Origin: an uncultured Tepidamorphus sp.
GTDB lineage: Bacteria > Pseudomonadota > Alphaproteobacteria > Rhizobiales > Tepidamorphaceae
Assembly: GCA_905479765.1 (NCBI GenBank)
Contig: CAJQNW010000155.1
Span: 1 to 32,084, forward strand
Reading direction: 5' to 3'
Length of the DNA stretch: 32,084 nt
A program made the position numbers and the translations under genes. How positions within the stretch are numbered: the first letter of the stretch is position 1; every line of letters starts with the position of its first letter. Below, piece by piece: positions 2,117 through 27,148 of the stretch. The notes below the pieces were generated by a model, which was not told where the DNA came from, searched no databases, and worked only from the letters and a program-made list of their open reading frames with translations.

Positions 2117-3457
2117 CTACAACGCCTCCAGAAAGCGCTTCGCCGCCGCGCCGTGCTCGACCCTCAGCCGCGCGACGTCGATCCCGACAGGCATGCCGTC
2201 CTCGATAGTCCACTCGCCCGAGATCATCACCCGGTCGGCCTGATGCGCCCCGCACAACACGAGGGCCGCCAGCGGATCGCCGGAGCCGGAGAACCTGAGC
2301 TCGTCGAGCGTGTACAGGGCCAGGTCGGCCTGCTTGCCGACCGCGATCGCGCCGATATCGTCACGCCCCAGGCACCGCGCTGACCCTTCTGTCGCCCAGC
2401 GCAGCACGTCGAAATGCGTGACCGCGCCGGAGCCGTAGGTCAGCCGGTTGATCATCAGCGCGTGCCGCACGCCTTCCATCAGGTTGGAGTTGTCGTTGGA
2501 CGCCGAGCCGTCGACGCCCAGACCCACCGGCACGCCGGCGGCTTCCAGTTCCTTGGTGCGGCACTGGCCCGATGCCAGCACCATGTTCGAGGTCGGGCAA
2601 TGGCTCACCCCGACGCGGTGCTTGCCGAGCCGGTCGACTTCGGCGTCGTTGAAATGGATGCCGTGCGCCAGCCACACCTTGTCGTTCAGCCAGCCCAGTT
2701 CCTCGAGATACTCGACCGGCCGGCAGCCGAAGTGTTCGAGACAGTAGGCGTCCTCGTCGTGGGTTTCGCCGAGATGGGTGTGGAGACGACAATCGAATCG
2801 CTCGGCAAGCGCGACCGACTCCGTCATCAGCCGCTTGGTGACCGTGAACGGCGCGCACGGCGCGAGCGCCACACGGATCAGCCCGCCCTCACTGGCATTG
2901 TGATAGCGCGACAGCACGCGCTCGCAGTCGGCCAGGATCGTGTCCTCGTCCTGGACGACGCTGTCGGGCGGCAGGCCGCCGTCCTTCACGGACAGGTTCA
3001 TCGAACCGCGCGTCACCGTCATCCGCATGCCGAGCGCGGTCGCCTCCTCGACCTGGATGTCCATGGCGCTTTCGAGGCCGTCGGGGAACAGGTAGTGGTG
3101 GTCGGAGGCCGCCGTGCAGCCCGACATCATCAGTTCCGTCAGCGCCAGCCGCGTCGCCAGACGGAAGCCCTCGGGCGTCAGCCGGCTCCAGATCGGATAC
3201 AGCGCCTGCAGCCAGGGAAACAGCTCCTTGTTGATGGCGTCCGGATGCGCCCGGGTCAGCGTCTGGTAGAAATGGTGATGGGTGTTGACGAGGCCCGGCA
3301 GCACCGCGTGGCGGCTTGCGTCGAAGACCGTGTCGACGGGAGCCGCCGGCTCTTTTCCCACGCCAACCAGTTCGACGATCCGGCCATTCTCGACGACGAT
3401 GCCGCGTTCCGCGCCTTCTGCGAGGATCGCCAGCGGATCCTTGATCCAATTGCGCAT
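2117..3457 (-). CDS. 8-oxoguanine deaminase-like amidohydrolase
   Basis: This belongs to the COG0402 amidohydrolase group, closest in pattern to 8-oxoguanine deaminase (8-oxoguanine to urate and ammonia) and its hydroxyatrazine-hydrolase-like relatives. A short beta domain is followed by the TIM barrel. Visible metal and catalytic motifs are VNTHHHFYQT (HxH near residue 60), HTHLGETHDED (His and Glu near 230), WLAHGIHF (His near 265) and GVDGSASND (Asp near 315). The C-terminal GKQADLALY strand pair closes the beta domain. The track starts at a GTG, but AAGGAG is 5 nt before the ATG at 3457, giving 446 aa. Only 2 nt separate it from the upstream RidA gene, so the two are co-transcribed. The exact substrate (8-oxoguanine versus another aminated purine or triazine) is inferred. 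Confidence 0.85.
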   Translation of the reverse strand: MRNWIKDPLAILAEGAERGIVVENGRIVELVGVGKEPAAPVDTVFDASRHAVLPGLVNTHHHFYQTLTRAHPDAINKELFPWLQALYPIWSRLTPEGFRLATRLALTELMMSGCTAASDHHYLFPDGLESAMDIQVEEATALGMRMTVTRGSMNLSVKDGGLPPDSVVQDEDTILADCERVLSRYHNASEGGLIRVALAPCAPFTVTKRLMTESVALAERFDCRLHTHLGETHDEDAYCLEHFGCRPVEYLEELGWLNDKVWLAHGIHFNDAEVDRLGKHRVGVSHCPTSNMVLASGQCRTKELEAAGVPVGLGVDGSASNDNSNLMEGVRHALMINRLTYGSGAVTHFDVLRWATEGSARCLGRDDIGAIAVGKQADLALYTLDELRFSGSGDPLAALVLCGAHQADRVMISGEWTIEDGMPVGIDVARLRVEHGAAAKRFLEAL

Positions 3458-3459
3458 CG

Positions 3460-3846
3460 TCACTCCTTCGCCGCCACGACTTCGACCTCGACCTTGAATT
3501 CCTCTCGCGCAAACCCCGAGACCACCATCAGCGTCGAAGCCGGCGGCGGATCGGCGGTGAATTCATCCCGCGCCGCCATGTAGTCCTTCAGGTAGGCCCG
3601 GTCGGATACGAATCCGTTGATGCGGATGATATCGGCGAGCGTCATGCCGGCGGACTGAAGAATGACGCGGATGTTCTCGAAGCACAGCCGCGTCTGTTCG
3701 GCCGCGCCTTCGGGGATGGCGTCGCCCGATCCGATGCCGAGCTGCCCGGAGCAGAACATCAGCCGGGCGCCCGCCTCGACCTCGACGCCATGACTGTAGC
3801 GGGCGAAGGGAGGACGGATGCCTCCCGGCGTGTGATGGGTTACCAT
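3460..3846 (-). CDS. RidA/YjgF/UK114-family protein
   Basis: This is a small trimeric-type Rid protein of 128 aa, a normal length. Classical RidA hydrolyses reactive enamine/imine intermediates. The fold is recognisable from FCSGQLGI near residue 32, the QTRLCFENI helix and the VEVEVVA end. The catalytic Arg of classical RidA, found in the PARS-type motif, is replaced: the segment reads PPPASTLMVV with Ala at that place. It therefore looks like one of the Rid subfamilies without the Arg, and imine deaminase activity is doubtful. It is the first gene of the minus-strand run with the deaminase and creatininase, which suggests handling of a nitrogenous intermediate there. Its ATG is only 39 bp from the start of the divergent creatininase copy 2. 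Confidence 0.9.
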   Translation of the reverse strand: MVTHHTPGGIRPPFARYSHGVEVEAGARLMFCSGQLGIGSGDAIPEGAAEQTRLCFENIRVILQSAGMTLADIIRINGFVSDRAYLKDYMAARDEFTADPPPASTLMVVSGFAREEFKVEVEVVAAKE

Positions 3847-3885
3847 GGTTGTTCCCGCCGAATGATTTCCGATCCGGAGACGCTA

Positions 3886-4683
3886 ATGACCGCCACGCGC
3901 CGCTGGCAAGACCTTACGACAGTTGATTTCGAATCCCTCGACCCGAACCGGACCGTCGCGGTGCTTCCCGTGGGCGCCATCGAACAGCACGGGCCGCATC
4001 TTCCCGTGGCGACCGATGCCCTCGTCGCCCAGGCCGTGGCGGAAGCCGCGGTCGCGGCGGCTGATCCCGATCTGCCCGTCCTGCTATTGCCCACCATGCC
4101 GGTCGGCAAGTCGAACGAACACATCGATTTCCCGGGCACGCTGACGTTGCCCGCAGAGACGCTGATAGGGCTGTGGCGCGAGATCGGCGAGAGCGTCGCC
4201 CGCTCCGGCGTCCGCAAGATGCTGTTCATCAACGCCCACGGCGGCCAGCCGCAGGTCATGGAAATCGTCGTCCGCGAACTCAGGGTCCGCAGGGAAATGC
4301 TCTGCGTCACCTCGAGCTGGTGGCATATGGGCATGCCGGGCGGACTGATCCCGCCGGAAGAATCCAGACACGGCATCCACGGCGGCATGGTCGAGACCTC
4401 GCTGATCCTGCACCTGGCCTCGGACCTCGTCCACATGGACAAGGCGGAGAATTTCACCCCGGTCATGGCCGAGATCGCTTCAGACAACGAAAAGCTCACC
4501 TATGTCGGCGGCGTCGGCATCGGCTGGCAGGCCCAGGATATCCATCCCGCCGGCGTGGCGGGCGACGCCACCAAAGCGACGCCGGAGATCGGCAAGGCCG
4601 TTTTCGAACATGTCATTGCCGGTTACGCCAGGCTCCTCGCCGAAATCTCCGAATATCCACTCTCGCGGATCAAACGGCGATAG
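3886..4683 (+). CDS. Creatininase-family amidohydrolase (copy 2)
   Basis: This is a second creatininase-fold metal hydrolase, 265 aa. Motifs are GAIEQHGPHLPVATD near residue 35, INAHGGQPQV near 118 and SRHGIHGGMVETSLIL near 165, so the metal site is complete. The track gives a 297-aa frame, but GGAG at 3876-3879 lies 6 nt before the ATG at 3886 and the family domain begins there (RRWQDLTTVDF). The extra N-terminus would overlap the divergent RidA gene. Compared with copy 1, the HGGN is HGGQ and the HGGDIE is HGGMVE, which suggests a different ligand rather than a recent duplicate. It ends 12 bp before the convergent phosphoesterase gene. Confidence 0.87.
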   Translation: MTATRRWQDLTTVDFESLDPNRTVAVLPVGAIEQHGPHLPVATDALVAQAVAEAAVAAADPDLPVLLLPTMPVGKSNEHIDFPGTLTLPAETLIGLWREIGESVARSGVRKMLFINAHGGQPQVMEIVVRELRVRREMLCVTSSWWHMGMPGGLIPPEESRHGIHGGMVETSLILHLASDLVHMDKAENFTPVMAEIASDNEKLTYVGGVGIGWQAQDIHPAGVAGDATKATPEIGKAVFEHVIAGYARLLAEISEYPLSRIKRR

Positions 4684-4695
4684 CCCCCTGTTGCC

Positions 4696-5490
4696 CTACC
4701 CGAACAGCATGCTGGGGCCGTGATCCCCGATATAGCTGATATGACTGACGATCCCGTTGCCGGGCCGCCACAGGTGCAGCAGACAGGCCGGCGGTTCGGC
4801 GATCCACGCGGCGGGGTTGTTCTCGGCGATATCGAGTGCCACGTGATGCGCGGTACCCGGCGCGATCATCGCGATGGTGCCCGCGAAGCGCGTCTGGATC
4901 GCGCGGTGAACATGGCCGCAGGCCACCACCTCGACGTGACCGTGACGAGCCACGACATCGGCCAGCGCGTCGCAATCCTCGAGCATGATCGCATCCATGA
5001 AGCCGATGCCGGTCCTGAACGGCGGATGGTGCAGGAATACAAGCGTCGGCCGCTCGGGTGCGGCGCTCAGTGTATCGTCGAGCCACCGAAGCTGCGCGCC
5101 GCCGATCCGGCCGCCATCCTGCCCTTCAACCAGCGTATCGAGGCCAATGAGCCGGACCGGATGGTCCTCGACGGCGTACCGCAGGGGTCCGTCCGCCGGC
5201 AGTACGCCGGTAAACGACAGATGGCGCCGCATCAGGTCGCGGCGATCGTGATTGCCGGGGATCGGATAGACCGGCATCGGCAGCCGGCTCAGCAGGCCGG
5301 CCAGCGCCGCGTAGTCCTCGTCGTCGCCGTCGTTGACGAGATCACCGGTCACGATCACCGCGTCGGGCCGGGGTGTCAGGGCCTCGAGGTGTTTGACCGC
5401 GTTTACAAGCGCGCCATGAGCATCTACCGCGTCGAACAGGCGTACGCCGTCGATGCGATAGTGGAGGTCGGTAATCTGGGCAATCAGCAC
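4696..5490 (-). CDS. GpdQ-like class III metallophosphoesterase
   Basis: This is a binuclear metallophosphodiesterase of the GpdQ/Rv0805 (class III cyclic nucleotide phosphodiesterase) type, 264 aa. All metal motifs are present: DLH (Asp8, His10), GDLVNDG (Asp50), GNHD (Asn80, His81), LHHPP (near 155) and GHVH (His193, His195). The track start at 5538 is wrong: GGGGAG lies 6 nt before a GTG at 5490, and with that start the ligand positions match those I recall for GpdQ (D8, H10, D50, N80). The likely substrates are phosphodiesters such as glycerophosphodiesters or cyclic nucleotides; the true one is unknown. It converges on creatininase copy 2 and diverges from the sigma-54 operon. Confidence 0.87.
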   Translation of the reverse strand: MLIAQITDLHYRIDGVRLFDAVDAHGALVNAVKHLEALTPRPDAVIVTGDLVNDGDDEDYAALAGLLSRLPMPVYPIPGNHDRRDLMRRHLSFTGVLPADGPLRYAVEDHPVRLIGLDTLVEGQDGGRIGGAQLRWLDDTLSAAPERPTLVFLHHPPFRTGIGFMDAIMLEDCDALADVVARHGHVEVVACGHVHRAIQTRFAGTIAMIAPGTAHHVALDIAENNPAAWIAEPPACLLHLWRPGNGIVSHISYIGDHGPSMLFG

Positions 5491-5849
5491 GATCGGCTCC
5501 CCGAAAATCGATGGAAACTGGTCTCCGTGTCGCAACACACCAAATTCGCGGCTTTGTCGAGCCTGTTCCCTTCCCCGGACGTGATGTTAGGCTGGAGATC
5601 TGACGGCTGACTGCCTCATTCTTGGGCATCAGGATAATTAAGGACGCAGTCCGTCCGGGTCTCTCGCCCTCTCGCGGCGAATCCCGTAGCGGATGGGGGT
5701 GGCATGGTGTTTGCTCGAACACTCCGGTTCGACGCGCGGCAGGTTGCGCGGTTACGTGGTCTTCCCGGGAATCGCTCCGGTGTCCCCGGTTTCCAGTTTA
5801 CGGCGTGCCGCTTCGGCGCCCGGTCCTCAAACATGGGAGGTGTTTCGTG
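5491..5849. other. 359-bp regulatory gap between divergent genes
   Basis: There is no gene here. On the plus strand it holds a near-consensus sigma-54 promoter (separate entry) and the leader of the binding-protein gene. A short palindrome GTGT-CGCA-ACAC (5527-5538) lies about 165 bp upstream of that promoter, where an enhancer-binding activator could sit, but it does not match the NtrC consensus well. I looked for TPP, guanidine (ykkC) and other riboswitch cores and saw none. Confidence 0.5.
5700..5715 (+). promoter_or_regulatory. Sigma-54 (RpoN) -24/-12 promoter
   Basis: The sequence TGGCATGGTGTTTGCT matches the sigma-54 consensus TGGCACG-N4-TTGCW at all but one fixed position (C to T). 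The invariant GG and GC are exactly 10 nt apart. Transcription would begin about a dozen bases downstream, giving a leader of roughly 120 nt to the ABC binding-protein gene. Sigma-54 control in alphaproteobacteria often goes with nitrogen limitation through NtrC, which suits the operon's content. It lies inside the over-long track ORF starting at 5622, which also argues against that upstream start. Confidence 0.7.
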
Positions 5850-6863
5850 ATGTCTTTACTACTGCGTTCAGCTACCGCCATTGGCGCGATGCTGGCTGCC
5901 GTCGGGCTTGCCAGCCCCGCTGCGGCCCTCGATGAAGTTACCTTCGGCACGAACTGGCTCGCCCAGGCCGAACACGGCGGCTTCTACCAGGCGATCGCCG
6001 ACGGCACCTACGAAAAGCACGGCCTCAAGGTCACGATCCGCCAGGGCGGGCCGCAAGCCGGCAACCAGGCGCTGCTGATCGCCGGGAAGATCCAGTTCTA
6101 TATGCAGGGCAACATGCTGTCGCCCTTCGACGCCGCCGAACAGGACATCCCGGTGATCGAGGTCGCCGCGATCTTCCAGAAGGAGCCGCAGGTGCTGCTC
6201 GCTCACCCCGATGCCGGCGTCGAGAAATTCGAGGATCTCGCCAAGCTGCCGACGCTGTTCCTGTCGAAGGACGGCTATTCGTCCTATTTCCTGTGGATGA
6301 AATCGGCCTTCGAGGGCTTCAACGACGCCCAGTACAAGCCCTATACCTTCAATCCGGCGCCATTCATTGCCGACAAGGAATCCGCGCAGCAGGGCTACAT
6401 CACGTCAGAGCCCTACGCCATCGAAAAGGAAGCAGGCTGGGCACCGAAATTGTTCCTGCTCGCCGACGAGGGCTTCAACACCTACTCGACGCTGATCGAA
6501 GGCATGAAGGACTACGTGGACGCCAATCCCGATATCACCAAGCGCTTTGTCGAAGCCTCGATCATCGGCTGGTACAACTACCTGTATGGCGACAACACCG
6601 CCGCCAACGCGCTCATCAAGACCGACAACCCCGAGATGACCGACGAGCAGATCGCCTTTTCCATCGCCAAGATGAAGGAATACGGCATCGTCGATTCTGG
6701 CGACACTGAGACCAAGGGCATCGGCTGCATGACGGACGAGCGCCAGAAGGACTTCTACGAAAAGATGGTCAAGGCCGGCGTCGTCAAGGCCGGTATCGAC
6801 TACACGACCACCTATACGACGGAGTATGTCTGCAAGGGCGTCGGTCTCGACCTCAAGAAGTAG
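5850..6863 (+). CDS. ABC transporter substrate-binding protein, NMT1/THI5-like
   Basis: This is the periplasmic ligand-binding component of an importer related to ThiY/SsuA/TauA, 337 aa. The signal peptide MSLLLRSATAIGAMLAAVGLASPAAA is followed by the mature start LDEVTFGTNWLAQAEHGGFY, the typical first strand and loop of NMT1-type proteins. IRQGGPQAGNQALLIAGK and the YITSEPYAIEKE hinge region follow. Members bind formylaminopyrimidines, aromatic or sulfonated compounds and other small rings; the ligand here is unknown. GGGAGG lies 9 nt before the ATG at 5850 and 6 nt before a GTG at 5847, so either may be used. The track start at 5622 is too early. It is the first gene of the sigma-54 operon, followed by two stem-loops and the ATPase gene. 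Confidence 0.9.
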   Translation: MSLLLRSATAIGAMLAAVGLASPAAALDEVTFGTNWLAQAEHGGFYQAIADGTYEKHGLKVTIRQGGPQAGNQALLIAGKIQFYMQGNMLSPFDAAEQDIPVIEVAAIFQKEPQVLLAHPDAGVEKFEDLAKLPTLFLSKDGYSSYFLWMKSAFEGFNDAQYKPYTFNPAPFIADKESAQQGYITSEPYAIEKEAGWAPKLFLLADEGFNTYSTLIEGMKDYVDANPDITKRFVEASIIGWYNYLYGDNTAANALIKTDNPEMTDEQIAFSIAKMKEYGIVDSGDTETKGIGCMTDERQKDFYEKMVKAGVVKAGIDYTTTYTTEYVCKGVGLDLKK

Positions 6864-6991: not shown

Positions 6992-7840
6992 TTGGTCAGC
7001 ACAATCGAAGCCGGCGGCCCCGAAGCCGGCGCCCCAGCCGAGCGATCGCGCACGTCGCCCGCACGCCCCCTGGTCTCCCTGAGCGGCGTCTCGAAAGTAT
7101 TCTCCAACGGCACGGTCGCCTTGCGCGACATGTCTCTCGACATCCAGCCTGGCACTTTCGTCAGCCTGCTCGGCCCGTCGGGCTGCGGCAAATCCACGGC
7201 ACTTCGTATTATCGCAGGCCTGGGCGAGGCCACATCCGGCTCGATCGACTGGCCGACTTCCGAATTCGACGCCTCAGGCCAGCCACACCCCGAGATCGGC
7301 TTCGTCTTCCAGGAACCCACACTGATGCCGTGGGCGAGTGTCTTCAACAATGTCCGGCTGCCGCTCCGGCTGAAAGGCAAGTCCCGTTCGGCATCGCGCG
7401 AAGACGTCATGAATGCACTGGAGATGGTTGGGCTGGAAAATTTCGCCGAAGCCTACCCGCGCGAACTGTCGGGCGGCATGAAGATGCGGGTGTCGATAGC
7501 CCGCGCGCTCGTCACGAGGCCGAAACTGCTGCTGATGGATGAACCCTTCGCAGCCCTCGACGAAATCACCCGCTTCAAGCTCAACAACGACCTGCTGCAC
7601 CTGTGGGAAAGCTTCGGCTGGACGGTGATCTTCGTCACCCACTCGGTGTTTGAATCGGTCTACCTGTCCGACCGGATCGTCGTCATGGCAGCACGGCCAG
7701 GCCGCGTGGTCGCCGATCTGGCGATCGATGCGCCCTATCCCCGCGAGGACGATTTCCGCACCTCAACCGTCTACAACGACTATTGCCGCGATGTCTCCAA
7801 TGCCCTGCACGACGCCATGGACGAGAAGGCGGACGCATGA
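6992..7840 (+). CDS. ABC transporter ATP-binding protein (SsuB/TauB/ThiZ-like)
   Basis: This is the cytoplasmic ATPase of the NMT1-type importer, 282 aa. Walker A is GPSGCGKST near residue 64, the Q-loop is VFQEPTLMPW, the signature is LSGGM near 155, Walker B is LLLMDEPFAALDE near 177, and the H-loop is FVTHS. The start codon is TTG: GGAGG at 6980-6984 sits 7 nt upstream and no ATG or GTG competes, so expression is likely low relative to the binding protein. An unusual Ala/Pro/Gly-rich stretch of about 25 residues precedes the first strand (LVSLSGVSKVF). The stop overlaps the permease start (ATGA), so the two are translationally coupled. Confidence 0.92.
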   Translation: MVSTIEAGGPEAGAPAERSRTSPARPLVSLSGVSKVFSNGTVALRDMSLDIQPGTFVSLLGPSGCGKSTALRIIAGLGEATSGSIDWPTSEFDASGQPHPEIGFVFQEPTLMPWASVFNNVRLPLRLKGKSRSASREDVMNALEMVGLENFAEAYPRELSGGMKMRVSIARALVTRPKLLLMDEPFAALDEITRFKLNNDLLHLWESFGWTVIFVTHSVFESVYLSDRIVVMAARPGRVVADLAIDAPYPREDDFRTSTVYNDYCRDVSNALHDAMDEKADA

Positions 7841-8712
7841 GCACGCTCGAAACCGCCTCGAAACCGGTGTCCACGCCCGCGGCGGCTGTTCAGGAAGAAA
7901 CGCCTTCCTCCACCGATCCGAACCGGCTTGGCGAGCGGCTGATCCGCATCCTCATTCCCGTCGCGATGCTGGGCGCCCTGATCCTGCTGTGGGCGTGGTA
8001 CGTGACCGCCTACGACGTGCCGCACTACATCCTGCCAAGCCCGTCCCGCGTGGCCAAGGCGATGATCGAGGACTGGCATATCCTCGGCCCCGCCCTGCTG
8101 GTCACCCTGAAGATCACCTTCACCGCCCTTGCGCTGGCGCTGATCGGCGGCGTCGCGCTGGCGGTATTGCTGATCCAGTCGAAATGGATCGAACTCGCGC
8201 TCTATCCCTACGCCGTCATCCTGCAGGTCACTCCGATCGTCGCGATCGCGCCGCTGATCCTGATCTACGCGCCGACGACCCAGTCGGCGCTGTTGATCTG
8301 CGCCTGGCTGGTCGCCTTCTTCCCGATCCTGTCGAACACCGCACAGGGCCTGAAGAGTGTCGACCACAACCTGCTCAACCTGTTCGAACTCTACGGCGCG
8401 AACCGCTGGCAGAGCCTGTACCTGTTGCGCCTGCCGGCGGCACTGCCCTATTTCCTGACAGGCTTGCGGATCGGCGGCGGACTGGCGCTGATCGCCGCTG
8501 TCGTCGCCGAATTCGCCGCAGGCTCCGCCGGCGCCGGCTCGGGCCTCGCCTTCCGGCTGCTCGAATCGCAGTTCCGGCTCAACATCCCGCGTCTGTTCGC
8601 GGCACTCATCCTGCTGTCGGTCACCGGCGTTCTGATCTTCTTCGCCACCAGCCTCATCTCCCACCTGCTCCTCCACAAGTGGCACGAGAGCGCCGTAAAG
8701 CGGGAGAACTAG
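7837..8712 (+). CDS. ABC transporter permease (SsuC/ThiX-like)
   Basis: This is the inner-membrane permease of the same importer, 291 aa. After a 35-residue hydrophilic N-terminus there are about six membrane segments, beginning with IRILIPVAMLGALILLWAWY. The EAA-type cytoplasmic loop that docks on the ATPase reads ELYGANRWQSLYLLRLPAALP near residue 185, as in binding-protein-dependent permeases of the BPD_transp_1 family. The ATG at 7837 overlaps the ATPase stop by 4 nt; the track start at 7783 is inside the ATPase gene. The deaminase-like gene follows after 2 nt, so the importer and enzyme are made from one message. Confidence 0.92.
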   Translation: MSTLETASKPVSTPAAAVQEETPSSTDPNRLGERLIRILIPVAMLGALILLWAWYVTAYDVPHYILPSPSRVAKAMIEDWHILGPALLVTLKITFTALALALIGGVALAVLLIQSKWIELALYPYAVILQVTPIVAIAPLILIYAPTTQSALLICAWLVAFFPILSNTAQGLKSVDHNLLNLFELYGANRWQSLYLLRLPAALPYFLTGLRIGGGLALIAAVVAEFAAGSAGAGSGLAFRLLESQFRLNIPRLFAALILLSVTGVLIFFATSLISHLLLHKWHESAVKREN

Positions 8713-8714
8713 GC

Positions 8715-10040
8715 GTGTCGACCGGATTTGCCCGCGTCCCCGCGGCCGGACGGTATCTCATCGCAAACGCAACGGTTCCCGAAGCCCTGGTGGAAACGGA
8801 TGCGAGCCTTCCTGCGGCTGGCGATGGCCTGGTAAGCACCGAGATCGAGATCGACGGCACGACCATCGCCGCGATCCGCGCACCAACCGACACGCCCGCC
8901 GGCGACCTCCCCGTCCTCGACATGGACGCCGGCATGGCCTGGCCCGGCTTCGTCGATATGCATACCCATATCGACAAGGGCCACATCTGGCCGCGTCGGG
9001 CCAATCCCGACGGCACGTTCATGGGCGCGCTCAATGCCGCCGAGGCCGATCGCGTGGCGAACTGGTCCCCCGACGATCTCGCCCGGCGCATGGATTTCTC
9101 GCTGCGCTGCGCCTATGCGCACGGCACCGTGCTGTTGCGCACCCACCTCGATTCCATCCCCCCGCAGCACACGACCTCATGGCCGGTGTTCTCCGAGATG
9201 CGCGAACGCTGGGCCGGCCGCATCGATCTGCAGGGCGTGGCGCTGATCACCATCGAGATGGCCGAAAATACCGGCGTGATCGAGGAGATTTCGGCGCTGG
9301 TCGAAGCCCATGGCGGCATGATGGGCTGCGTCACCTACATGGTGCCGGGCCTAGACGGCTTCCTCGATACGGTCATCGCCGCCGCCGCCAGGCACGGTCT
9401 CGACCTCGATTTCCATTCCGACGAGTCGCAGGACCCGGGCCAACGCTCGCTCGCCCATGTCGCCGAAGCTGTCCTGCGCAACCGCTTCGGAGGCCGCGTC
9501 GTCTGCGGCCATTGCTGCTCGCTGGCCCGGCAGCCGGAGGAGGAAGCCCGCCGCACAATCGAGCGGGTCGCCGAAGCCGGCATCGCCGTCGTGTCGCTGC
9601 CCATGTGCAACATGTACCTACAGGATCGCCACGCCGGCCGCACACCGCGCTCGCGTGGCATCACGATGCTGCATGAATTGGCGGCTGCCGGCGTCGAGGT
9701 GGCGGTCGCCAGCGACAACACCCGCGATCCCTTCTATGCCTATGGCGACCTCGACATGCTGGAAGTCTTCTGCGAGACGGTGCGCATCGGCCATTTCGAC
9801 CACCCCTTCGCGATGTGGCCTCAACTCGTCGGCGCGGCACCAGGCCGCATCCTGCGGCGACCGGATCGTGGCATTCTGCGCGCCGGGACGCCCGCCGATA
9901 TCGTATTGTTCAGGGCGCGAAGCTGGACGGAACTCCTGTCCCGCCCGCAAAGCGAGCGAAGCGTCTTGCGCGGCGGTCGCCCAATCGACACAACGGTGCC
10001 CGACTACCGCGAACTCGACGACCTGTTCGAGAGCGCCTGA
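8715..10040 (+). CDS. Cytosine deaminase-like amidohydrolase
   Basis: This is a CodA-group metal-dependent amidohydrolase, 441 aa, which deaminates or hydrolyses an imported ring compound. The motifs follow cytosine deaminase: DMHTHIDKGHIW (HxH at 83/85), DFHSDESQDPG (His and Glu near 234), CGHCCSL (His near 264) and ASDNTRDPFY (catalytic Asp near 332). A C-terminal GTPADIVLF segment closes the beta domain. Relatives act on cytosine, creatinine, isoguanine, triazines or related rings; the sequence does not decide. The start is a GTG with GGGAG 8 nt upstream, 2 nt after the permease; the 796-aa track ORF runs through the permease region out of frame and its first half is not real. A 6-bp stem (ACGGTC/GACCGT, 10041-10062) follows the stop. 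Confidence 0.85.
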   Translation: MSTGFARVPAAGRYLIANATVPEALVETDASLPAAGDGLVSTEIEIDGTTIAAIRAPTDTPAGDLPVLDMDAGMAWPGFVDMHTHIDKGHIWPRRANPDGTFMGALNAAEADRVANWSPDDLARRMDFSLRCAYAHGTVLLRTHLDSIPPQHTTSWPVFSEMRERWAGRIDLQGVALITIEMAENTGVIEEISALVEAHGGMMGCVTYMVPGLDGFLDTVIAAAARHGLDLDFHSDESQDPGQRSLAHVAEAVLRNRFGGRVVCGHCCSLARQPEEEARRTIERVAEAGIAVVSLPMCNMYLQDRHAGRTPRSRGITMLHELAAAGVEVAVASDNTRDPFYAYGDLDMLEVFCETVRIGHFDHPFAMWPQLVGAAPGRILRRPDRGILRAGTPADIVLFRARSWTELLSRPQSERSVLRGGRPIDTTVPDYRELDDLFESA

Positions 10041-11501: not shown

Positions 11502-12080
11502 ATGCGAATACTCGTTCTTTACGCTCATCCCGTCGAGACAAGCTTCTGTGCGGCTCTGCATGCCCGGGTCGTCGAAACGCTGCGGGCGGCCGGACACCAG
11601 GTCGACGATTGCGACCTCTATGCCGAGGAGTTCGATCCCGTTCTGTCGCGTGAGGAACGGCTCGGCTATCACGACGTGCCCGACAACCGCGCCCCGGTCG
11701 CAGCCCATGTCGACCGGCTTATGGCGGCCGAGGCCCTGGTCATTGTCCATCCGGTGTGGAATTTCGGCTTGCCCGCCATCCTGAAGGGATATCTGGACCG
11801 CGTTTTCCTGCCCGGCGTCTCGTTCCGTATGGAAAATGGAGCGGTCGCGCCGAACCTGACCCATATCAAGCGGATCACGGCGGTCACCACCTATGGTGGC
11901 ACCCGGTTCCGGGCCTGGGTGCTTGGCGACCCCCCGCGAAAGATCGTCAAACGGCTGCTACGCGCCACGGCGCCGCGGGCGAAGGTCAGGTATCACGCGC
12001 TTTACGACATGAACCGCAACGACGCTTCCGCGCTTAAGGGGTTTCTTGAGTCAGTCGGTCGCGAAATGGAACGATTCTGA
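11502..12080 (+). CDS. NAD(P)H-dependent oxidoreductase, flavodoxin fold (copy 1)
   Basis: This is a 192-aa member of the Flavodoxin_2 group (NQO1/KefF/MdaB-like), which reduces quinones or other acceptors using FMN or FAD and NAD(P)H. Characteristic segments are ILVLYAHPVETSF at the N-terminus, the HPVWNFGLPAILKGYLDRV flavin loop near residue 85, and TTYGGTRF near 130. It follows the FAD oxidase by 18 nt. Its stop overlaps the start of a paralogue by 1 nt (TGATG), so the pair is translated together and may form a heterodimer or act in sequence. Confidence 0.85.
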   Translation: MRILVLYAHPVETSFCAALHARVVETLRAAGHQVDDCDLYAEEFDPVLSREERLGYHDVPDNRAPVAAHVDRLMAAEALVIVHPVWNFGLPAILKGYLDRVFLPGVSFRMENGAVAPNLTHIKRITAVTTYGGTRFRAWVLGDPPRKIVKRLLRATAPRAKVRYHALYDMNRNDASALKGFLESVGREMERF

Positions 12081-12670
12081 TGCGTGTTCTGGTGATCTAC
12101 TGCCACCCCTGCGAGGAAAGCTACAATCACGCGGTTCTCGAAACGACGCTTTCGGCATTGGGCGAATCGAACCACGAGATCCGTCTGATCGATCTCTATG
12201 CCGACGGATTCGATCCGGTGATGAGCCCTGACGAGCGCCGCGGTTACCATACGCCGGAAGCAAACGAAATCCCGGTTTCCCGGTACCTTTCGGACCTGAA
12301 ATGGGCGCAAACGCTAGTGTTCGTCTACCCGACCTGGTGGTTCGGATTGCCGGCTATGCTGAAAGGCTGGTGCGACCGCGTCTTCGTGCCACACGCCACC
12401 TTCGAGATCCCCAGCGAAACCAGGCAGATGGATCCGAAGTTGGACAATATCCGCCGCATCGTCGTGGTCACGACATGCGGCGCATCGTGGCTGATGTCCA
12501 AATTCGTCGGAGAACCGGGCCGGAGAACGATTTTACGCGGCGTACGATGGCTCTGCCACCCGAAATGCCGCACGAACTACTTAGCCCACTACAAAATGGA
12601 CACGTCGACTCCGGACAGCCGCGCGCGCCATCTAAAGCGCGTATATCGGCTATGCCGACTTATCACTTGA
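12080..12670 (+). CDS. NAD(P)H-dependent oxidoreductase, flavodoxin fold (copy 2)
   Basis: This is a 196-aa paralogue of the preceding gene, with VLVIYCHPCEESYNHAV at the N-terminus, YPTWWFGLPAMLKGWCDRV near residue 82 and TTCGASW near 133. It is richer in Cys and has a basic C-terminal tail (RARHLKRVYRLCRLIT). Tandem duplication followed by divergence is likely; the two are similar in order of motifs but differ throughout. It ends the sigma-54 operon, since a gap with its own regulatory palindrome follows before the MarR gene. Confidence 0.85.
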   Translation: MRVLVIYCHPCEESYNHAVLETTLSALGESNHEIRLIDLYADGFDPVMSPDERRGYHTPEANEIPVSRYLSDLKWAQTLVFVYPTWWFGLPAMLKGWCDRVFVPHATFEIPSETRQMDPKLDNIRRIVVVTTCGASWLMSKFVGEPGRRTILRGVRWLCHPKCRTNYLAHYKMDTSTPDSRARHLKRVYRLCRLIT

Positions 12671-12719: not shown

Positions 12720-12755
12720 CATCATCCACTCTGGGAGTTGGGGGACTCTCTTATC

Positions 12756-13247
12756 ATGAAGAAATGGTATGAAGATTCGGTCGGGCTGCATCTGACGCGC
12801 GCCGCCCGCCTGCATCGCGCACGTGCACACTCCATGCTCGGGGAAATCGGTATCCATCCCGGGCAGGAAAATGTCCTTCAGGTACTCCTGGAAGACGATG
12901 GTCAGCCGATGACCAAACTGGCCTCCGAACTCAAGGTCAAACCGCCCACCGTGACGAAAATGGTATCGCGCATGGCTGCCCAGGGCCTTGTGCGTCGCAT
13001 CGCTTCCGAGACGGACGCCCGCAGCGCGCGGGTCTTCCTGACCGACGAAGGCCGGTCGCGCGGCATCGAACTGAAAAAGCGTTGGAAGCGGCTCGAGCAG
13101 ATGACCATGCGCAATGTTCCCGACAAGGAACGCGCTCGTCTGATCAAGCTGTTGATGGCCGTAGAGGCATCACTCAACGATGAAAGCGTCGATGACGCCG
13201 ACCAGTCCGACGGCAGTGAAATCGTCTACGACGAAAACGCCGCCTGA
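12756..13247 (+). CDS. MarR-family transcriptional regulator
   Basis: This is a 163-aa winged-helix regulator. The DNA-binding part reads MTKLASELKVKPPTVTKMVSRMAAQGLVRR (helix-turn-helix, about residues 50-80), followed by the wing ETDARSARVFLTDEGR and a C-terminal dimerisation helix. The C-terminus is acidic (DESVDDADQSDGSE). The track starts at a TTG at 12738 with no room for an SD, so I use the ATG at 12756, preceded by a G-rich stretch. MarR proteins usually respond to small, often aromatic ligands. Its place right after the importer/deaminase/oxidase operon and before an aminotransferase gene suggests it senses that pathway's compound. Confidence 0.88.
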   Translation: MKKWYEDSVGLHLTRAARLHRARAHSMLGEIGIHPGQENVLQVLLEDDGQPMTKLASELKVKPPTVTKMVSRMAAQGLVRRIASETDARSARVFLTDEGRSRGIELKKRWKRLEQMTMRNVPDKERARLIKLLMAVEASLNDESVDDADQSDGSEIVYDENAA

Positions 13248-24405: not shown

Positions 24406-26112
24406 TCAAAACAGCGAATAGAGCTGCGCCATCGGCAGCACCGTGGCCGGCTTGCTGGTTATCAGTTCGCCGTTGGCGCGCACCTCGTAAGTCTCCGGAT
24501 GAACGTCGATTTCCGGTTGCTCGCCGTTGTGGATCATGCTCGCCTTCGAGATCGTACGGGTATTGCTGACCGGCACCAGCGTTTTCGCCACGCCCAGCCG
24601 CGCGGCCAGCCCCGCATCGACCGAGGCCTGGGAGACGAACGTCACCGAGCTCGACGTCAGCGCCTTGCCGTAGGCGCCGAACATCGGCCGGTAGTGCACC
24701 GGCTCGGGGGACGGGATCGAGGCGTTCGGATCGCCCATGGGAGCTGCCGCGATCGATCCGCCGATTAGCACCATCTCCGGTTTCACCCCAAAGAAGGCAG
24801 GCGACCACAACACCAAATCGGCGCGTTTTCCCACCTCGACAGAGCCGATCTCGCCCGACATGCCGTGCGCGATCGCCGGGTTGATCGTGTATTTGGCGAT
24901 GTAGCGCCTGACCCGGAAGTTGTCGTTGTCGCCGGTTTCCTCCGCCAGGCGGCCGCGCTGCACCTTCATCCGGTGCGCGGTCTGCCAGGTCCGGATCAAC
25001 ACTTCGCCGACCCGGCCCATCGCCTGGCTGTCTGAGGCGATGATCGAGAAGGCTCCCATGTCGTGCAGGACGTCCTCGGCCGCCATGGTCTCCTTGCGGA
25101 TCCGGCTCTCGGCAAACGAAACATCCTCCGGGATGTCCGGATCGAGGTGGTGGCAGTGCATCAACATGTCGAGATGCTCCTCGATCGTGTTGACGGTGTA
25201 TGGCAGCGAGGGATTGGTCGAGGACGGGATGACGTTGGAAAGCCCGCACACCTTGATGATGTCCGGCGCGTGTCCGCCGCCGGCACCCTCGGTGTGGAAG
25301 GCGTGGATGACGCGGTCCTTGAACGCCTTGACGGTGTTTTCGACGAAACCGGATTCATTCAGCGTGTCGGTGTGGATCATCACCTGCACGTCGAGGTCGT
25401 CGGCGACCGACAGGCAGCAGTCGATCGCCCCCGGCGTCGTGCCCCAGTCCTCGTGCAGCTTCAGCGCGCACGCCCCGCCCAGTACCTGCTCGACGAGCGC
25501 GTCGGGACGCGAGGCATTGCCCTTGCCCGACAGGCCGATGTTCAATGGCAGGCCGTCGCAGGCCTCGATCATCCGTCCGATGTGCCACGGCCCCGGCGTG
25601 CAGGTCGTCGCCAGCGTGCCGTGCGCCGGGCCGGTGCCGCCGCCCAGCATGGTGGTGACGCCGGAATACAGCGCCTCGTCGACCTGTTGCGGGCAGATGA
25701 AATGGATATGCGCGTCGAAGCCGCCGGCCGTCAGGATCTTGCCTTCACCGGCGATCGCCTCGGTGCCCGGCCCGACGATGATGTCGACGCCCGGCTGGAT
25801 ATCCGGATTGCCGGCCTTGCCGATGCCGACGATGCGCCCGTCCTTCAGACCCACGTCGGCCTTGAAGACACCGGTATGGTCGACGACCAGCGCACAGGTG
25901 ATCACCGTGTCGACGGCGCCGCCCTCGCGCGTCACCTGGCTCTGGCCCATGCCGTCGCGGAGCACCTTGCCGCCGCCGAACTTCACCTCCTCGCCGTAAA
26001 CCGTGAAGTCCTTTTCGACCTCGATCCACAGGTCGGTGTCGGCGAGCCGCAGCCTGTCGCCGACGGTCGGGCCGAACATGTGGGCGTAGTCCTTGCGGGA
26101 CATGCTAGCCAT
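24406..26112 (-). CDS. ureC: Urease alpha subunit UreC
   Basis: This is the catalytic urease subunit, 568 aa (normal), which hydrolyses urea to ammonia and carbamate. The nickel site is complete: HIH at 135/137, carbamylated Lys218 in ALKLHEDWG, His247 ([11 protein letters not shown]), His273 ([13 protein letters not shown]) and Asp361 ([11 protein letters not shown]). The mobile flap reads [10 protein letters not shown] with Cys320 and His321; the residue before Cys is His rather than the usual Val. An ATG at 26112 (MASMSRK) and one at 26103 are possible; GAGGAAAG upstream favours 26112. Unusually it is separated from ureAB by a DUF1311 gene and an opposing cytochrome gene, so it probably has its own promoter in the 181-bp divergent gap. 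Confidence 0.97.
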
Positions 26113-26293
26113 TTTACGTCTTTCCTCTGGGCTTTTGGTCCTGGAGCTCCTGCGCCCGACGGCAGCGAGGTCGATCCGCATAGCCGACGCGATAAATGCT
26201 CTTGACCGAACGGAAGCAGTGATAATCAATCGGCTTAAGGGTCCGATCCCCCATAACCAGGATCCGAACACCGATGCATGAGGAGAACACGCC
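26113..26293. promoter_or_regulatory. Divergent promoter region, ureC and cytochrome c
   Basis: This 181-bp gap must hold the starts of transcription for both divergent genes unless ureC is read through from ureAB. It is AT-richer towards the cytochrome side (GATAATCAATCGG near 26220). I see no sigma-54 match and no -35/-10 pair with correct spacing that I would call; TTGACC (26202) and GATAAT are only 13 nt apart. Confidence 0.35.
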
Positions 26294-27148
26294 ATGAAGG
26301 CGCGAATAACAATGCTTGTTGGCGGGGCGCTCGCGCTTGCTGCCATGCCGGCGGCGGCCGAAACACCGCTCGAACGCGGCACCTATTTGATGCAGGGGCC
26401 CGCCGCCTGCGGCAATTGCCACACGCCGATCACCCCGCAGGGCCTGCCGATCGAAGGCCAGGAGCTCTCTGGACGTCTCGTCGAGGACAACGAGTTTTTC
26501 ACCGCCTACGCGCCCAACATCACGCCCGACACCGAAACCGGCATCGGCGGCTGGACGGACGAGCAGATCATCACCGCGATCCGCGAGGGCAAGCGCCCGG
26601 ACGGCTCCATCATTGGCCCGCCCATGCCGATGGGGCTTTACCGCGGCATTTCCGACAGCGACGCGAAGGCCATCGTTGCCTATCTGCGCTCGGTTCCTCC
26701 GGTGAAGAACGAGGTGCCGAAATCCACCTACCGGATACCGCTGCCGCCGGCCTATGGCCCGCCGGTCGGCGAGGTGGCCGATGTCACGCCCGGCGTGACA
26801 GCCGAGTACGGCGCCTATCTGGCCGGTCCGGTCGCCCACTGCATCGAATGCCATACCCCGATGGGCGAGAGGGGACCCGACTTCGAGAACCGGCTCGGCG
26901 CCGGCGGCTTCGAGTTCCACGGCCCCTGGGGCGTCTCGGTTACAAGCAATCTGACGCCGCACGAAGACGGTCTCGCAGGCCGCAGCGACGAGGACATCGC
27001 AAAGATGATCACGACCGGCACCCGGCCCGACGGCACGCCGATGCTGCCGCCGATGGGCTACAACTACTACGCCAACATGAGCCCCGAGGACGTCAAGGCG
27101 ATCATTGCTTACCTGCGAACGCTGCCGCCGCAGCCCACCCCGCAATAA
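26294..27148 (+). CDS. Dihaem cytochrome c
   Basis: This is a 284-aa periplasmic cytochrome with two c-type haem sites, CGNCH near residue 39 and CIECH near 182, each in its own class I-like domain. The signal peptide is [22 protein letters not shown]. Each domain has a [17 protein letters not shown]- or [13 protein letters not shown]-type helix followed by a Met region ([19 protein letters not shown]) and a closing [10 protein letters not shown] or [10 protein letters not shown]. This layout is that of the cytochrome subunit found with membrane alcohol/aldehyde or other dehydrogenases, but no dehydrogenase is next to it. GGAG is 8 nt before the ATG. It is encoded against the urease genes that flank it on both sides. 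Confidence 0.92.

Follow-up and report, generated by a model that had tools for sequence, protein, structure and literature searches.

The alphaproteobacterial glnK-amtB and glnB promoters that are under NtrC and sigma-54 control combine a −24/−12 element with an upstream dyad of the TGC-N11-GCA type. By comparative genomics, lineage-specific extensions of the NtrC regulon have been described that include urea transport, urease, allophanate hydrolase and nitrate uptake (PMC5343134), and COG0402, the cytosine/guanine deaminase family, has been predicted, at the level of COGs, to reside behind sigma-54 promoters (PMC12316311). The NtrC proteins of Caulobacter and Rhodobacter lack the GAFTGA motif and act on sigma-70 promoters (PMC10274813). 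In the window, the whole stretch of 32,084 nucleotides from an uncultured Tepidamorphus sp. analysed here, a −24/−12-like element and an upstream dyad likewise precede an operon, which in this case encodes an importer and a deaminase. Judged from sequence, we consider it probable (about 0.77) that phosphorylated NtrC and sigma-54 drive this operon for the scavenging of nitrogen.

The first gene of the operon (5850..6863, + strand) encodes an NMT1/THI5-like solute-binding protein (PF09084) with a signal-like N-terminal sequence. According to profile searches, it is followed on the same strand by genes for a NitT/TauT-like ABC transporter ATPase (6992..7840), an ABC transporter permease (BPD_transp_1; 7837..8712), a cytosine-deaminase-family amidohydrolase (8709..10040), a GlcD-like FAD-linked oxidase (PF01565; 10083..11483) and a flavodoxin-fold NAD(P)H oxidoreductase (11502..12080), while a second flavodoxin-fold oxidoreductase (12080..12670, +) was recognized by its likeness to the product of the gene before it. 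Importer, deaminase and oxidase, all named in a preliminary description of this DNA, are borne out by these searches, and the deaminase scores above the curated cut-off of NF005759 (638.6 versus 403 bits), with deamination of cytosine as the predicted activity. The gene of a MarR-family regulator (12738..13247, +; profile search) may or may not be part of the same transcript. At its other end, the intergenic region is bordered by a divergent gene for a calcineurin-like phosphoesterase (metallophosphoesterase; 4696..5538, − strand).

Further upstream are two creatininase-family genes (1171-1983, −, and 3790-4683, +), which flank an 8-oxoguanine deaminase gene (2117-3463, −), and genes of these kinds repeatedly adjoin the operon in many relatives. 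Urease genes, counted in favour of NtrC control, are located on the same contig: between 21972 and 32055 a CobW/HypB/UreG GTPase domain, urease alpha and UreD make up a nitrogen-scavenging neighbourhood, in which a branched-chain-type permease may be part of a urea transporter. Antisense inside the urease alpha gene (24406-26382, −), the Rfam family RF02514 (5′ ureB sRNA) is matched at 25675-25962 (+) with 93.5 bits. In Helicobacter, this family reportedly represents an antisense RNA, and the match may only reflect conserved urease coding sequence.

The promoter element TGGCATGGTGTTTGCT occupies positions 5700..5715 of the + strand, with the GG at 5701-5702 and the GC at 5713-5714, and is separated by 150 nt from the ATG (5850) of the solute-binding protein gene. 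A single mismatch to TGGCACG-N4-TTGCW, C to T at position 6, and an intact GG-N10-GC spacing had been claimed for this place and were confirmed; the accompanying claim, that no other such site was found in the intergenic regions, can be widened, as a scan of the whole window for at most one mismatch returned this site alone (expected 0.27 matches). By itself, the consensus match is weak evidence and carries no significance. Significance on this ground was rejected, with five matches at two mismatches in the window versus 5.15 expected, at least one match at no more than one mismatch in 22 of 100 shuffled windows and, assembly-wide at the same tolerance, 21 sites versus 55 for the reversed control pattern, which is thus the commoner one. 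The stricter pattern TGGCAYG-N4-TTGCW occurs five times in the 5.0 Mb assembly (control, once); these genome-wide scans are pattern searches in an assembly that is 85% complete and distributed over 521 contigs. What sets the element apart from chance is its conservation in relatives together with the enhancer-like dyad upstream. A sigma-70-like promoter was not found between 5490 and 5860, and the leader from the promoter to the first gene (5716..5849, +) matched no Rfam family, hence no riboswitch was found. Taking consensus match and conservation in orthologues together, 5700-5715 is very probably a functional sigma-54 promoter.

Conservation was assessed by locating orthologues of the solute-binding protein in relatives and searching the 450 nt upstream of the 80 named orthologous loci. 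Loss of the site from close relatives that retain the operon had been named in the preliminary description as the observation that would speak against the promoter; instead, with up to two mismatches allowed, the element is present in 15 of the 16 closest named orthologues, compared with none of the remaining 64 loci and 1.6% of letter shuffles of the same upstream regions. The record titles of these 16 cover Kaistia, Roseibium, Pannonibacter, Pseudoxanthobacter, Chthonobacter, Bosea, Mesorhizobium, Rhodobacteraceae and Tepidamorphus, and the one exception (L121) carries TGGCATACCTCTTGCG with three mismatches. The element persists, with differing N4 spacers, in two congeneric genomes and in a further genome from the family (GGGCACGGGGTTTGCT, TGGCATGCGGTTTGCT and TGGCATGTCGCTTGCT), and relatives at the level of the order include perfect matches to the consensus (TGGCACGGCGCTTGCT and TGGCACGTGCGTTGCA). 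Among 24 loci of this sigma-54 type, in which TGGCA and TTGC are largely retained and the N4 spacers vary, the element was detected in 22 (controls: reversed 2, antisense 2, inside the gene 1), whereas 300 permuted consensuses averaged 0.66 on the same loci and never exceeded 4; as eight of the 24 came from the list of relatives and were mostly chosen for having the site, the unselected 15/16 is the cleaner figure. At greater distance, mainly in Rhizobiaceae, the operon persists without the promoter and is adjoined by a LysR-type gene instead.

The genome encodes the machinery that such a promoter would demand. RpoN is present (PF04552, 238.5 bits), and NtrC scores 716 bits against a cut-off of 558.6, has an intact GAFTGA and is preceded by an NtrB-like gene, which makes it an NtrC of the sigma-54 type, unlike its Caulobacter and Rhodobacter counterparts (PMC10274813). 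NtrX of this genome, where the GAFTGA is missing, and NtrC are two of seven PF00158 proteins.

The palindrome TGCCTCATTCTTGGGCA (TGC-N11-GCA; 5612..5628), which precedes the promoter element by 88 nt and is absent from the preliminary description, is a putative NtrC-type enhancer dyad. It was scored with a symmetric 17-bp model of the NtrC box, seeded with TGC-N11-GCA and trained solely on the upstream regions of glnB/glnK-type genes from 13 genomes, with the glnK promoter of this genome included and the present operon excluded (consensus about TGCMYAWWWWWTRKGCA). Under this model, position 5612 ranks first in the entire window with 15.5 bits, the next position reaching 9.4. Among the 21 near-consensus sigma-54 sites of the genome, a box that exceeds 12 bits and lies no more than 200 nt away accompanies only three, namely glnK-amtB (19.7 bits, 102 nt upstream of its sigma-54 site), the present operon and L216 (G000:C285:270-285), where the sigma-54-like site CGGCACGAGCCTTGCT has a box of 12.8 bits 100 nt upstream and precedes another NitT/TauT-type binding protein gene at a contig end; the flagellar hook-type sigma-54 site (L194) is without an NtrC box. 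In the relative from the same family, TGCCCGATTCTTGGGCA precedes the sigma-54 element by 72 nt, and TGC-N11-GCA or near versions of it occur in most sigma-54-type relatives, although with this model a good dyad was not found or was weak in four of them (L003, L018, L114 and L126). Well-scoring AT-rich dyads that resemble TGC-N11-GCA are also situated upstream of LysR-type loci without a −24/−12 element, so that the dyad alone is not diagnostic; used as a discriminator between sigma-54-type loci and LysR-type plus other loci, its score fails (medians 12.0 and 15.4 bits).

The proposed NtrC/sigma-54 control builds on computed results: the conserved element, the likeness of the dyad to glnB/glnK NtrC boxes, rpoN and the GAFTGA-bearing NtrC. 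Upon nitrogen limitation, NtrB would phosphorylate NtrC, and NtrC-P would bind the dyad at 5612-5628 and loop to the sigma-54 RNA polymerase waiting at the −24/−12 element of 5700-5715. Hydrolysis of ATP by NtrC-P would then lead to promoter opening, and transcripts would begin near 5726 and proceed through the genes for solute-binding protein, ATPase, permease, cytosine deaminase, FAD oxidase and flavodoxin oxidoreductases. Presumably a nitrogen-containing ring compound, probably pyrimidine-like, would be imported and deaminated to release ammonia. The preliminary description had tied the operon to nitrogen limitation or another RpoN activator; this link is supported and can be sharpened, as nitrogen limitation is now favoured over another activator because of rpoN, the GAFTGA in NtrC and the dyad 88 nt upstream.

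The alternative that survives best retains the sigma-54-dependent promoter and assigns it to a different enhancer-binding protein, L206, L208, L209 or a remote activator, which would sense the substrate or another cue. Five of the seven PF00158 proteins, the FlbD-like L205 and four others, are neither NtrC nor NtrX; L206, L208 and L209 among them bear GAFTGA and are without an assigned role; one relative (G025) has a gene for a bacterial enhancer-binding protein about 9 kb from the orthologous solute-binding protein gene; and the good NtrC dyad is missing in some relatives, as detailed above. In the remaining sigma-54-type genomes searched, however, none of the listed enhancer-binding protein genes adjoins the operon, and the dyad is precisely the position in the window that most resembles the glnB/glnK boxes, which renders an activator other than NtrC unlikely.

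A second alternative emerges from the loci that lack the element. A divergent LysR-type gene stands directly before the binding-protein gene in 61 of the 80 loci, with the sigma-54 element in none of these 61, and no sigma-54-type locus has an adjacent gene of this LysR family, matches of 29-31% identity in L112, L122 and L123 representing other LysR-type genes. The gene order of the operon, from solute-binding protein through ATPase, permease, deaminase and FAD oxidase to flavodoxin, is alike in both groups. LysR boxes are T-N11-A palindromes as well, and a similar AT-rich dyad is found near the LysR start in LysR-type loci; instead of an NtrC box, the dyad at 5612-5628 could on these grounds be an operator to which a LysR-type protein or some other regulator binds, and it could act alone or beside sigma-54. 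We regard this as rather improbable, since the genome of the window has no close orthologue of the adjacent LysR family elsewhere (best 27% identity) and GATGCC...GGCATC plus AATTTTGATGCTTTTCAAA, not such a dyad, is the top conserved intergenic element of the LysR-type loci. A chance origin of the 16-mer, with the operon read from an ordinary promoter, as the matches in shuffled windows and the commoner reversed pattern might suggest, is very improbable in view of an element kept in 22 of 24 loci against a control mean of 0.66 and of a region devoid of a sigma-70-like site.

In the alignment of LysR-type loci L128-L178 (A2), GATGCC...GGCATCAATGCG-N-ACGAATTTTGATGCTTTTCAAA is highly conserved between the LysR and binding-protein genes and is probably the LysR operator.

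Fifty-six binding proteins were placed in a tree (quick search, midpoint root). The LysR-type sequences form a single group in it (SH-aLRT 97), and the sigma-54-type sequences are scattered over several branches, not all of them within the main group, which suggests that sigma-54 control predates the LysR gene and that this gene was gained once. A fuller scenario, in which a dedicated LysR-type regulator took over, a single time, from ancestral NtrC/sigma-54 control in the operon lineage of Rhizobiaceae and Roseibium, possibly leaving an NtrC-like dyad behind, we put forward tentatively, at slightly less than even odds. If it holds, a general nitrogen-starvation response has been turned into a presumably substrate-specific one. 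Two records filed as Roseibium aggregatum, L113 and L133 (strains PHM038 and IAM 12614), differ in the regulatory version that they bear, be it as paralogues or as replacements. Two kinds of regulator swapped before one conserved operon would offer a tractable natural example of regulatory rewiring.

A literature search for NtrC control of an importer/deaminase operon retrieved only loosely related papers, with most subscription papers outside its reach. The systems reported in the accessible part of the comparative study (PMC5343134) likewise combine uptake and hydrolysis of nitrogen compounds under NtrC in particular lineages, and an operon of NMT1 importer and cytosine deaminase is not named among the extensions given there. 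The sigma-54 survey (PMC12316311) likewise links a deaminase family with sigma-54 and, in its accessible part, does so without the operon described here, an NtrC dyad or an exchange with LysR. The LysR-associated operon of Rhizobiaceae and relatives has the same gene order and differs by the divergent LysR gene and the lack of a −24/−12 element. For a widespread and uncharacterized operon of Hyphomicrobiales, assignment to the nitrogen-starvation response would suggest a purpose for importer and deaminase, the acquisition of nitrogen from a ring compound, as well as the condition under which to search for the substrate. The closest architecture is provided by glnK-amtB of the same genome, with the element at −151 and the box 102 nt further upstream, compared with −150 and 88 nt for the operon. 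Two differences remain: the −12 elements of glnK-amtB promoters (L093-L105) mostly read TTGA or TTGT, whereas the operon has TTGC, and, in contrast to glnK-amtB and glnB, the target is a catabolic importer/deaminase operon. The kind of system is a known one, as NtrC regulons reach lineage-specific nitrogen-scavenging genes, of which the importer/deaminase operon would be a further case.
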